NCBI RefSeq assembly: GCF_008692195.1 | Contig: NZ_RXOM01000018.1 | Location: 248,001-312,000 of the forward strand | DNA length: 64,000 bases | Direction of reading: 5' to 3' | DNA from: Salegentibacter sp. R32 | GTDB taxonomy: Bacteria > Bacteroidota > Bacteroidia > Flavobacteriales > Flavobacteriaceae | Shown here: positions 7,626-14,899 of the stretch, one piece after another | Position numbering within the stretch: position 1 is the stretch's first letter | How the letters are laid out: the number at the start of each line of letters is the position of its first letter | Program-made: the position numbers and the translations under genes | The notes under the pieces: model-generated | Seen by the model: the letters and a program-made list of their open reading frames with translations, nothing else | What the model was told of the DNA's origin: nothing | Database searches by the model: none

Positions 7626-7670
7626 TTGAATATTGGTAATGAATCAACATAACAAACCGTCACCCGTTTG

Positions 7671-7766
7671 TCACACTGAGCGGAGTCGAAGTGTTGATTC
7701 AGCTTTTTATGCTTAATATTTTGTTTTTCAAAGTAGTATGCGATTCCGAATCAAGTCCGGAATGAC
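7671..7766. repeat. Two palindromic repeats at the end of the trp operon
   Basis: Between trpA and the convergent DUF1697 gene are a palindrome with core GAGCGGAGTCGA (7671-7697) and one of the type GATTCCGAATCAAGTCCGGA (7742-7766). Both recur, in other orientations, inside and between the trp genes. They are short REP-like elements, not coding. Confidence 0.8.
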
Positions 7767-8609: not shown

Positions 8610-8713
8610 GCGCCAGGGATAGTAGCGGCATCCTTTTTTGCTATCTAAAGCTTCTCGACTCCGCTCGAAGTGACAAGCAAAAAAGATATAGCGAATAGCC
8701 CGCTCGGGCGCCC
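8610..8713. repeat. Composite repeat, copy 1 (trpB-trpA spacer)
   Basis: A ~104-bp element has the ordered blocks GCG..AGGGATAG, a T-rich tract, the palindromic core CTTCTCGACTCCGCTCGAAG, then AAAAAAGATATAGCG and ATAGCC. The same block order occurs inverted at 34719-34826. Outer blocks flank a core that also occurs alone elsewhere in the window, so the core looks nested in an older element. Confidence 0.75.
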
Positions 8714-9901: not shown

Positions 9902-9920
9902 TTCTTTAAAATTTGTAGGA

Positions 9921-9995
9921 TGTGATGCTGAATCAAGTTCAGCATGACGGTATTGAAAAAAAAATCGTCATTCCGGACTTGATCGGGAATCTCAT
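9921..9995. repeat. Two palindromic repeats between trpF and trpB
   Basis: Element one (9921-9949) has the core ATGCTGAATCAAGTTCAGCA; element two (9967-9995) has the core ATTCCGGACTTGATCGGGAA. The trpF stop codon overlaps the end of the second. Both types recur inside trpF. Confidence 0.8.
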
Positions 9996-10813
9996 CAACT
10001 TTTTATTTTCTTTGTAAAAAAAATTAAATCTTCTATATTTTTTCTTCCCGGTTCGGTTTCGAATTTACTGTTCACATCGATCGCGTGAAGCGGTAAATTA
10101 AGCTGTTGAAATTCTTTGATTTTTTCAACTTCGTTTAATCCAATTCCGCCGCTTAAAAAAAACGGTTTTTGAAACGGATATTCTTTTAAAACTCGCCAAT
10201 CGAAAGTAAAACCATTACCACCGGGATTCTTTCCTTTGGTGTCGAATAAAAAATAATCGACCACCGGAATGTATTTTTCTAATTCCTGAAAATCGAAGTG
10301 ATCATTGATTGAAAACGCTTTGATGATTTCAATCGAATTTGATTTGGTTTGATGTGATGCTGTCCCTCGACTCCGCTCGGGATGATTTTCGGCAAAGTGA
10401 TTTTGTTTTTTTAGAGCGTCACCCTGAACTTGTTTCAGGGTCTCATCCTTATTCTCATTTGTGATGTGATGCTGAATCGAGTTCAGCATGACGTCAGAAA
10501 ATATGTCATCCCGGACTTGATTTGGGATCTCATTTCGCTTTTTATTTCTGAATCCTTGGCAATACTCCACACTTTCAGTTCCATGAAGTTGAATCGCTTG
10601 TAAATTATAGGCTTCAACTTTTTGTTGAATAAAACTCGGTTCTGCATTTACAAAAACACCTGTTTTTTTTATGACTGAATTGAGCTGCGGAATCTGTTCT
10701 TCAACAAATCGCGGAGATTTTTCATAGAAAATAAAGCCCATATAATCAGGTTGAAGTTGTGCCAACTCCAGTATATTTTCTTCGTATTTCATTCCGCAGA
10801 CTTTCAGTTTCAT
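9995..10813 (-). CDS. trpF: Phosphoribosylanthranilate isomerase with repeat-derived insert
   Basis: TrpF converts phosphoribosylanthranilate to CdRP in tryptophan synthesis. The ends are normal: MKLKVCGMKYEENI with the catalytic Cys, PDYMGFIFYEKSPRF, and the C-terminal DTKGKNPGGNGFTFDW with FLSGGIGL. The chain is 272 residues rather than about 205 because roughly 70 residues (89-158) are inserted between QLHGTESVEYCQ and IEIIKAFSI. That insert is translated from four tandem palindromic repeats and stays in frame. I chose the start at 10813 over the ATG at 10855; the upstream extension is itself read from a repeat. Whether the enlarged enzyme is active cannot be told from sequence. Confidence 0.93.
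   Translation of the reverse strand: MKLKVCGMKYEENILELAQLQPDYMGFIFYEKSPRFVEEQIPQLNSVIKKTGVFVNAEPSFIQQKVEAYNLQAIQLHGTESVEYCQGFRNKKRNEIPNQVRDDIFSDVMLNSIQHHITNENKDETLKQVQGDALKKQNHFAENHPERSRGTASHQTKSNSIEIIKAFSINDHFDFQELEKYIPVVDYFLFDTKGKNPGGNGFTFDWRVLKEYPFQKPFFLSGGIGLNEVEKIKEFQQLNLPLHAIDVNSKFETEPGRKNIEDLIFFTKKIKS
10340..10549. repeat. Four tandem palindromic repeats inside trpF
   Basis: In order: 10351-10386 (core TCGACTCCGCTCGGGATGA), 10418-10448 (core CCCTGAACTTGTTTCAGGG), 10461-10495 (core GCTGAATCGAGTTCAGC) and 10505-10537 (core TCCCGGACTTGATTTGGGA). Each differs from the next but has a relative elsewhere in the window except the second. The total length is a multiple of three and contains no stop in the trpF frame. 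Confidence 0.85.
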
Positions 10814-10826
10814 GTTTTTATTTTTT

Positions 10827-10910
10827 GTCATTCCGTGCTTGACACGGAATCTCATTTCGAATTTCTAATATAATGTGATGCTGTCCCTCGACTCCGCTCG
10901 GGATGACATA
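10827..10910. repeat. Two palindromic repeats between trpC and trpF
   Basis: Elements at 10827-10859 (core TTCCGTGCTTGACACGGAA) and 10875-10910 (core CCCTCGACTCCGCTCGGGA) fill almost the whole spacer. The first would be translated if trpF used the upstream ATG at 10855. Confidence 0.8.
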
Positions 10911-12705: not shown

Positions 12706-12708
12706 AAT

Positions 12709-12735
12709 CCTCCCTTGATCCCTCCAAAGGAGGGA
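12709..12735. repeat. Palindromic CCTCC/GGAGG repeat
   Basis: The core CCCTCCAAAGGAGGG lies in the trpG-trpD spacer. The same G/C-rich family occurs at 12789-12817, 13374-13410 and 13483-13512. Confidence 0.75.
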
Positions 12736-12754
12736 AATTTTTAGATGATTGGTC

Positions 12755-13465: not shown

Positions 13466-14899
13466 TCAACGGGAGAGTTTTATTCCCCTCCTTTGGAGGG
13501 GTTGGGGGAGGCTTTTAGCAATTTCTAAGGCTTTGGTAAGCGCTCCTAATTTATTATATACTTCTTGTAGCTCGTTTTCGGGTTTAGAATCTGTCACGAT
13601 CCCGGCGCCGGCTTGCCAGTGAAGCTCGTGAGCTTTACTTAAAAAGGTTCTAATCATAATGGCGTGATTAAAATTGCCTTTAAAATCCATCACTCCGATG
13701 GCGCCACCGTAAAAAGTTCGGTTAACGGTTTCATATTTATCAATGAGTTCTAAAGCTTTGTATTTTGGAGCCCCGCTTAAGGTTCCTGCAGGGAAAGTAT
13801 CGGCCACTAATTGCATCGTCTCCATATTATTTTTATTTTTTCCCGTTACTTTACTTACCAAGTGAATCACGTGTGAGAAAAACTGAATTTCTCGATAAGT
13901 TTCTACTTTAACTTTGGCACAATTTCTACTTAAATCGTTTCTTGCTAAATCTACTAGCATCACGTGTTCTGAGTTTTCTTTTACATCTGAAGCAAGTTGT
14001 TTGGCAAGTTCTGCATCATGCTCATCGTTCCCTGAACGTTTAATGGTGCCGGCAATAGGATGAATTTCTGCCATCTCGTTTTCAACTACCAATTGCGCTT
14101 CCGGAGAGCTTCCGAAGATTTTAAAATTTCCGTAGTCAAAATAGAAAAGGTAAGGTGAAGGATTTACGCTTCGAAGTGCGCGATAAACATTAAAATCGTC
14201 TCCCTTATATTTTTGTGTAAAACGCTTCGATAATACCAACTGAAAAACATCGCCGCGTGCGCAATGTTGTTTGGCTTTTTCTACGTTTTGCTTGTAAACT
14301 TCATCTTCAATATTAGAAGTGATCTCGCCATCGGTTTCAAAACTAAATTGGGCAAAATTTTTGGTTTGCAGTAAAGCTTGCAGTGTTTCTAAATTGCTTT
14401 CAGAATTGTAATTGTGCGAAAATAAATAGGCTTCGTTGTTGAAATGATTAATGGCAATAATGTTTTGATAAACCGCATAATAAAAATCTGGAATGTCGAG
14501 CTTGTCTTCTTTTTCTTCAAGCTGAATACTTTCAAAATACTTAACAGAATCATAACCAGTATAGCCAAAAATACCGTTGTGAATGAATTTGTAATTGCTT
14601 TCTTCAGTTTTAAACTGTTGTGCAAATTGTTCTATTTCTGATGGAATATGTACGGAAGAAGTAATTTCTTTTTCAATTTTATGACCATCAGGATATTCAA
14701 TAAAAAGCCTGTTGTTTTTCGCTTTAATGGAAGCAATTGGATTGCAACAGATATAGGAAAAACTATTTTTATTGGCGTGATAATCGCTACTTTCTAACAA
14801 TAAACTATGCGGATATTGATCCCGTAATTTAAGGTAAATACTTACCGGGGTGATCGTATCTGCGATTATTTTTTTAGCGTCTGTTTTTAGCGTATACAT
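13466..14899 (-). CDS. trpE: Anthranilate synthase component I
   Basis: TrpE makes anthranilate from chorismate. The chain begins MYTLKTDAKKIIADTITPVS, shows the Trp feedback-site element LLESSD, and has the chorismate-binding core PSPYLFYFDYG, IAGTIKRSG, LVDLARNDLSR and HIVSKVTG-like HLVSKVTG with AGAGIVTDS. The frame is open to an ATG at 14926, but that start lies inside the attenuator, so I use 14899. The last residues (SLPQPLQRRG) are translated from a G/C-rich repeat, replacing the usual short end. First structural gene of the operon. Confidence 0.96.
   Translation of the reverse strand: MYTLKTDAKKIIADTITPVSIYLKLRDQYPHSLLLESSDYHANKNSFSYICCNPIASIKAKNNRLFIEYPDGHKIEKEITSSVHIPSEIEQFAQQFKTEESNYKFIHNGIFGYTGYDSVKYFESIQLEEKEDKLDIPDFYYAVYQNIIAINHFNNEAYLFSHNYNSESNLETLQALLQTKNFAQFSFETDGEITSNIEDEVYKQNVEKAKQHCARGDVFQLVLSKRFTQKYKGDDFNVYRALRSVNPSPYLFYFDYGNFKIFGSSPEAQLVVENEMAEIHPIAGTIKRSGNDEHDAELAKQLASDVKENSEHVMLVDLARNDLSRNCAKVKVETYREIQFFSHVIHLVSKVTGKNKNNMETMQLVADTFPAGTLSGAPKYKALELIDKYETVNRTFYGGAIGVMDFKGNFNHAIMIRTFLSKAHELHWQAGAGIVTDSKPENELQEVYNKLGALTKALEIAKSLPQPLQRRGIKLSR
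13483..13512. repeat. Palindromic repeat at the 3' end of trpE
   Basis: The core CCCCTCCTTTGGAGGGG is within the trpE frame and encodes SLPQPLQRRG just before the stop. Confidence 0.75.

Follow-up and report, generated by a model that had tools for sequence, protein, structure and literature searches.

Why does the phosphoribosylanthranilate isomerase (TrpF) encoded in the window, the whole stretch of 64,000 nucleotides analyzed here, contain a segment of short palindromic repeats, and is this segment an accident of one gene or an instance of something more general? We addressed this question by examining the gene, the repeats and their relatives in the same genome, and the corresponding region of TrpF in sister species and across the family.

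The interrupted trpF gene

The trpF gene lies on the minus strand within a trp operon, whose genes we named by reading the ORFs of the window. From the ATG at 10811-10813 it encodes 272 amino acids; the longest ORF, with a start further upstream, has 286. Its product matches the TrpF of named Mesonia records, reaching 78% in the best-matching segment, and the Pfam profile PF00697 in two pieces, profile positions 2-92 and 86-190, with the insert in between. In Pfam and NCBIfam, the TrpF family alone matched the protein. Compared with the uninterrupted 207-aa TrpF of M. aestuariivivens, the excess amounts to 64 residues; the extra segment described in an earlier note on this DNA is therefore real, and its size is smaller than the 70 or so residues given there. 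The same note held that palindromic repeats lie in frame within TrpF, which is borne out: the insert consists of four short repeat units, and the frame is open across all of them, so that they would be read through into protein. To call the enzyme essential was too strong, since TrpF went unmatched in 6 of 15 genomes of the genus. The features of the region are collected in Table 1, which also lists relatives in the trpC-trpF, trpF-trpB, and trpB-trpA spacers; the earlier note had likewise recognized relatives in nearby spacers.

Table 1. Repeat units and associated features in the trp region (positions in the window)
Feature	Position	Strand	Remarks
trpF, phosphoribosylanthranilate isomerase, with insert, 272 aa	9995..10813	-	PF00697 E=2e-30 in two pieces; AF2 model similar to 1nsj
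Insert segment (residues 96-157), predicted disordered, flanked by helix 82-94 and strand 162-169	10343..10528	-	pLDDT <50
Unit 1, 29-nt CGTC-type REP, read as EIPNQVRDD	10505..10533	+	1 mismatch to pattern
Unit 2, 29-nt CGTC-type REP, read as VMLNSIQHH	10464..10492	-	1 mismatch; DNA fold z -3.2
Unit 3, 29-nt CGTC-type REP, read as DETLKQVQGD	10418..10446	+	0 mismatches; DNA fold z -3.8
Unit 4, chimera, read as HPERSRGTASH	about 10352..10386	-	T4 model E=1.2e-5; has a spacer twin
Twin of unit 4, trpC-trpF spacer	10873..10907	-	100% over 34 nt; nearly the same element here in M. oceanica
29-nt REP, trpC-trpF spacer, upstream of the trpF ATG	10827..10855	+	3 mismatches
29-nt REP, trpF-trpB spacer, half of a head-to-head pair	9967..9995	+	1 mismatch; pair absent from M. 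oceanica
29-nt REP, trpF-trpB spacer, other half of the pair	9920..9948	-	0 mismatches; absent from M. oceanica
29-nt REP between trpA and the convergent downstream gene	7738..7766	-	1 mismatch
Type-4 repeat, trpB-trpA spacer	8654..8675	-	Repeat comparison (D11, I19)
Type-4-like repeat, downstream of trpA	7667..7689	+	Repeat comparison (D10)

A further inverted repeat of the region (CCTCCAAAGGAGG) occupies positions 12706-12738 and 13482-13514 of the window. One of its arms lies in the trpD-trpG spacer and the other at the 3' end of the trpE ORF, where it may be another translated repeat, read as SLPQPLQRRGI.

Three units of one dispersed repeat and a chimera

Units 1 to 3 share a single 29-nt consensus, with a GTC tag, an 8-bp covarying stem, a 5-nt loop, and the tail CTCAT; these three of the four units fit the pattern GTCAYNCYGRNCTTGNTYCRGNRTCWCAT, and in the window's trpF they match our model of this type (S1) with E values of 2.4e-8 to 4.8e-7 (locus L003). 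The stem joins positions 4-11 with 24-17 and is paired in 92 to 99% of 89 distinct units; its first pair is A-T in 87 of them and its second T-A in 71. Since the search pattern favors most of the stem pairs, the one pair that it leaves open on both sides offers a fair test of covariation. This pair is standard in 84 of the 89 units, as compared with 41 on average and 51 at most when the data were shuffled 500 times, and its composition is mixed (CG, 32; TA, 28; GC, 17; AT, 4; G-T or T-G, 3). The overall covariation figure (0.775 versus 0.662) also averages in two flanking non-pairs. The loop, positions 12-16, is mostly CTTGA or CTTGT, and the tail reads CTCAT or CACAT, partly set by the search pattern. 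Among 120 units, the base preceding GTC, itself part of the pattern, is C in 90, T in 25, and A in 5.

Unit 4 is a chimera in which a type-4 core (CGAGCGGAGTCGAG) is joined to a tail of the first type, GCATCACAT; it has an identical 34-nt twin at 10873-10906. Thus, the insert holds three stem variants of one type plus one chimera, instead of the four different families that had been proposed. As single-unit DNA, units 2 and 3 fold clearly better than shuffled sequences, and units 1 and 4 do not (z scores of -0.85 and +0.5).

The 29-nt repeat is not a product of chance, because its pattern has 95 matches at three or fewer mismatches in the window's genome and the reversed pattern has none. It was matched in 15 of 16 same-genus genomes, with up to 145 copies, and one reversed match overall, in genome G008. 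These many dispersed copies are mostly intergenic: when all 95 sites of the window's genome (88 + 7) were checked against ATG-started ORFs of at least 100 aa, only the three in the trpF insert fell inside such a gene. The unit at 10827 lies within the longest trpF ORF, yet upstream of the trpF ATG. The type-4 pattern has 25 copies in the window's genome, and among 13 that were checked, 2 are within ORFs, namely, unit 4 and a copy near the start of a 454-aa ORF. Near the best matches in other same-genus genomes, 5 of 43 sites of the S1 type and 6 of 14 of type 4 are inside ORFs, some of them at ORF ends and one of each type being that of the M. oceanica trpF.

Two further proteins of Mesonia carry translated repeats, and the TrpF loop is therefore not the sole tolerated place. 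As a clear case, the leucyl-tRNA synthetase of M. oceanica (L125:3-2708, G002:C3) has an in-frame head-to-head REP pair (NAMLKQVQHDGSERHSELDSESHHNEI); the same protein has a DUF559 domain at residues 120-223, ahead of the editing-domain match. A glycosyltransferase (L143:1049-2218) holds a translated type-4 unit, YHLERSRET, in mid-protein, and a similar-sized ORF of another same-genus genome (L144:1046-2212) has a type-4 unit too.

As a candidate for a dedicated mover of the repeats, we considered the Y1 transposases (PF01797), which were matched in 5 of 10 same-genus genomes searched, including that of the window. Their presence does not track copy number, as G008 has 97 copies and no match and G001 has a match and 1 copy, and we rejected this candidate. 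None of the eight Y1 transposase loci checked in the genus had a hit of S1 or of the type-4 model (T4) at an E value of 0.01 or less.

Predicted structure of the interrupted enzyme

The earlier note left the question of whether the insert forms a surface loop. In an AlphaFold2 model built on an alignment of 36 sequences (mean pLDDT, 79.9; pTM, 0.73), the TrpF barrel is predicted intact, mostly with pLDDT above 90, and the insert is predicted to be a disordered α4-β5 loop, its residues having pLDDT below 50, as have residues 196-201. The best PDB match of the model is the TrpF of Thermotoga maritima (1nsj), with a TM-score of 0.84 by target length. The presumed catalytic Cys and Asp, C6 and D191, are invariant in the 36 sequences; in the T. 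maritima enzyme, these roles belong to Cys7 and Asp126. Helix-to-strand loops in such barrels face away from the active site, and the position of the α4-β5 loop opposite the active site would explain why TrpF tolerates an insert there.

Loop arrays in sister species

Ten same-genus genomes have TrpF, that of the window included, and five of them carry repeats in the loop. In M. oceanica all four units recur, and unit 1 encloses an additional small palindrome. The arrays of M. mobilis and Mesonia sp. UWMA-0090 pair unit 1 with a first-type unit into which the type-4 core is set; in M. phycicola, unit 1 is accompanied by a type-4 unit in reverse orientation and by another unit in forward orientation. 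All of these arrays are in frame. Outside the loop, the TrpF of M. oceanica (L065) seems to be extended at its N terminus by a G+C-rich repeat (CCTTCCCCTTGGGGGAAGG...) just past the likely start codon. The trpF frame of L009 (G021) continues into trpB via a palindrome-like stretch read as IPAFAGMTE, and joined trpF-trpB frames of that kind occur in several family members.

Between the window and M. oceanica, the parts of trpF on either side of the insert have diverged at synonymous sites (N-terminal part, dS of 0.95 and omega of 0.10; C-terminal part, 1.10 and 0.11), whereas the insert has a dS of 0.144, a dN of 0.108, and an omega of 0.75. In rounded counts, 6 of about 46 synonymous sites differ in the insert versus 63 of about 112 in the body (Fisher P = 4e-7). 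The insert peptide is thus weakly constrained, and the insert DNA is far more alike in these two species than the gene surrounding it. The insert dS of M. oceanica versus M. mobilis is likewise below that of the body (0.36 versus 1.07 and 1.13). The window and M. mobilis do not share this pattern, the insert value of 0.30 falling between the 0.41 and 0.18 of the flanking body parts. In the comparison of the window with M. oceanica, an insert dS of 0.14 beside a body dS of about 1.0 is not what simple neutral decay from the time of divergence would give; the alternatives are a later exchange of the array and a constraint acting on the DNA as such.

Recurrence across the Flavobacteriaceae

The recurrence of the loop site in the family is a point absent from the earlier note. 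TrpF was matched in 232 of the 249 genomes of an even draw, and we examined the TrpF DNA of 162 (143 plus 19 added, mostly short), which include all those with long-span or split matches. Repeat sequence occupies the α4-β5 loop in 25 of the 162 genes, 25 of 143 in the first set and 0 of 19 in the added set. A loop hit of S1 or T4 at an E value of 0.01 or less was obtained in 17 genomes; the count is 25 with class 3, which is assigned by peptide pattern, not by model. Among the remaining 70 of the 232 genes (L337 and L404 among them), those listed span at most 621 nt, which corresponds to short loops. Fifteen of the 18 longest loops in the draw hold a recognized repeat. Examples of loop repeats in the family range from a single clean unit (L257) through forward-reverse pairs (L223 and L235) and type-4 pairs (L102 and L241) to a large palindrome in Aquimarina (L071) and nested hairpins (L238).

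We then located S1 and T4 hits at the same threshold in 187 distinct trpF loci. Forty are in loops (13.4 kb), a figure inflated by the choice of these loci partly for long loops; they comprise 24 S1 hits, and 16 hits of T4, whose 22 training sites come in part from L140, the M. oceanica trp operon with its trpF unit, and the 3 hits of L007 are counted as loop hits. Another 46 are intergenic, and none lies wholly inside the 593 kb of other coding DNA of these loci, coding being approximated by the longest ORFs of at least 100 aa. Five hits overlap ORF ends, and three more lie at or before the trpF start (upstream in L003 and L006, and overlapping the likely start by 3 nt in L005). On a tree of TrpF plus TrpB, the presence of S1 or T4 (23 positive of 185 rows) requires at least 17 changes, gains and losses together, on a weakly supported topology with 67 of 182 branches open. 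This tree excludes L091 and L101; L105 and L378 were not parsed, and the loops of L003 and L004 were miscut, part of the insert entering the alignment ahead of the 50% column filter.

Wherever the insert is of the 29-nt type, that type is in the genome's own stock: the 11 such genomes searched have between 6 and 63 copies, counting those in the insert. Its copy numbers are 0, 0, 1, 11, 15, and 19 in six genomes whose inserts are all of type 4 or class 3, and 0, 0, 1, 1, 2, and 11 in six insert-free genomes. A stock does not force an insert, and abundance alone is no predictor of one, because insert-free genomes can hold the repeat (11 copies in G107 and 38 in M. aestuariivivens). One clade (L260, L262, L268, L269, and L274) has loops such as RSTKLLSRPIE, which may be what erosion has left of an old insertion of S1 (RHAELVSAS).

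As a control, a class-level draw gave a TrpF match in 47 of 119 genomes. In 29 parsed loci of the 30 best, one of them from the same family, the distance from QLHG to IIKAF is 24 to 29 residues; taking the 30 best-scoring loci of the 47 matched genomes favors intact genes. No loop repeat was found in these 29 TrpF sequences, and the sole repeat hit was outside the loop.

Origin of the insert

The insert is made up of copies of a repeat scattered through the genome, whose stem shows covariation. These copies lie in frame in one loop, and the loop arrays differ both between same-genus genomes and between genera. Taking these observations together with the predicted structure, we estimate at roughly 85% the probability that the insert is an array of CGTC-type REPs and that such REPs have repeatedly landed in the α4-β5 loop of TrpF, where they would be read as a disordered, weakly constrained peptide. 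Under this model, dispersed hairpin repeats would land in the loop again and again; the loop would tolerate them because it lies on the side of the barrel away from the active site; in-frame insertions would survive; and the survivors would then decay, grow, become nested, or be replaced by other repeats.

Many landings may not be needed if a single ancient insertion in the family was followed by the swapping of repeats in place through conversion with genomic copies, a scenario that we regard as rather improbable. Several genera have in common a forward-then-reverse pair with similar spacing (L012, L074, L220, L223, and L224), short loops elsewhere resemble eroded remnants (RSTKLFS and RHAYS), and one spacer position carries different stems in the window and in M. 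oceanica, which has a unit with another stem at the place of the REP at 10827..10855. However, the Mesonia arrays run in the opposite order, reverse and then forward, and the next-branching rows of the same genus, L017 and L021, have a 12-residue loop. Moreover, the neighbors L219 and L257 have different repeat types, and the single type-4 insert of L258 stands beside the empty loop of L081.

Repeated landing also has to be weighed against a role of the hairpins in the trp mRNA, for which they would be kept to act on the stability or translation of trpF, trpB, and trpA, with the peptide merely tolerated. The repeats in the three trp spacers besides trpF would suit such a role, as would the twin of unit 4 in the trpC-trpF spacer, which is almost the same in M. 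oceanica although its flanks have diverged, the low insert dS relative to M. oceanica, and the RNA fold of the insert, which is somewhat better than that of shuffled sequences (z = -2.08; 7 of 200 as good). Yet 5 of the 10 genomes of the genus that have TrpF lack repeats in the loop, the trpF-trpB pair is missing from M. oceanica, the make-up of the array varies among species, and units 1 and 4 fold poorly alone. We therefore consider an mRNA role unlikely as the reason for the insert.

That the insert is a genuine protein domain, or an extension of TrpF that has long been conserved, is very improbable. It is suggested by class-3 loops of 38 to 39 residues (RHYEERNDEVISS...SRND), which are alike across several genera; against it are the Pfam and NCBIfam results, which give the TrpF family alone, the low pLDDT and the omega of 0.75 of the insert, and the occurrence of class-3 repeats away from trpF in 4 of 14 genomes searched. 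The earlier note had named a long-conserved domain in relatives as the finding that would speak against repeats; we looked for one and found instead different repeat arrays, or none. We give practically no credence to an assembly or sequencing artifact, as the same four-unit arrangement is open in frame in M. oceanica and related in-frame arrays occur in three further same-genus assemblies.

Relation to known palindromic repeats

The CGTC-tagged REPs described by Di Nocera, De Gregorio, and Rocco in 2013 (PMC3733652) have a CGTC or TGTC tag, a stem of 8 or 9 bp starting with a paired A-T, a loop of 4 or 5 nt, and a short unpaired tail, most often CCA. They form head-to-head pairs and are mostly intergenic, with some translated in genes, and no flanking transposase is reported for them. 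The TrpF units agree with them in the CGTC/TGTC tag, the 8-bp stem starting with A-T, the 5-nt loop, and the head-to-head pairs, and TrpF-type repeats are also mostly intergenic and sometimes translated. They differ in the tail, which is CTCAT or CACAT, and in the repeated colonization of one enzyme loop over many genera. Where that paper names the phyla with CGTC repeats, Bacteroidetes are among them and Flavobacteria are not (PMC3733652). Stacking of units at one site, which the earlier note considered notable, is not new in itself because REP clusters inside genes, encoding 43 to 82 amino acids, are already reported in that paper; it also notes a single instance in which different REPs occupy roughly one position, in recB of two Xanthomonas species.

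The earlier likening to Rickettsia palindromic elements (RPEs) was right as to in-frame palindromic repeats. According to PMC2229807, classical RPEs are 105 to 146 bp long with 12-bp terminal inverted repeats and are inserted in frame and translated in conserved genes, and a guanylate kinase with such an insert is reported active. The TrpF repeats are likewise palindromic and read in frame in a conserved gene; they differ in their 29-nt units. RPE-4 and RPE-6 have been equated with CGTC-4 and CGTC-1 REPs, as stated in PMC3733652. With the GTAG REPs and their RAYT transposases, as presented in that paper, our repeats share the form of short hairpins thought to be nonautonomous mobile units; the tag is another one, and the eight Y1 loci of the genus lack nearby copies at the threshold given above. 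Overall, the earlier interpretation holds for the in-frame repeats, the predicted disordered loop, and the spacer relatives, and is mistaken or overstated for the four families, the novelty of stacking, and essentiality.

Implications

Translated palindromic repeats are thus a known kind of element, and the novelty is the recurrent use of one enzyme loop across many genera. Among open-access PMC papers, we found no print record of repeats in trpF and none of the repeated colonization of one enzyme loop across many genera. More tentatively, the α4-β5 loop could be a standing landing site for REPs, whose arrays, within a working gene, would be acquired, become nested, replace one another, and travel between species in short tracts of DNA; a mobile noncoding repeat might thereby supply a protein segment that changes rapidly and perhaps also a hairpin with a regulatory role in the trp mRNA.

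In Rickettsia and several other bacteria, the translated palindromic repeats described so far are scattered over many genes. The TrpF loop brings together a large set of comparable cases, among them lone clean units, arrays of four, hairpins nested in one another, and what look like eroded remnants. This makes two questions accessible to testing: by what means CGTC REPs, which have no known dedicated transposase, move, and how protein sequence arises from a selfish repeat.
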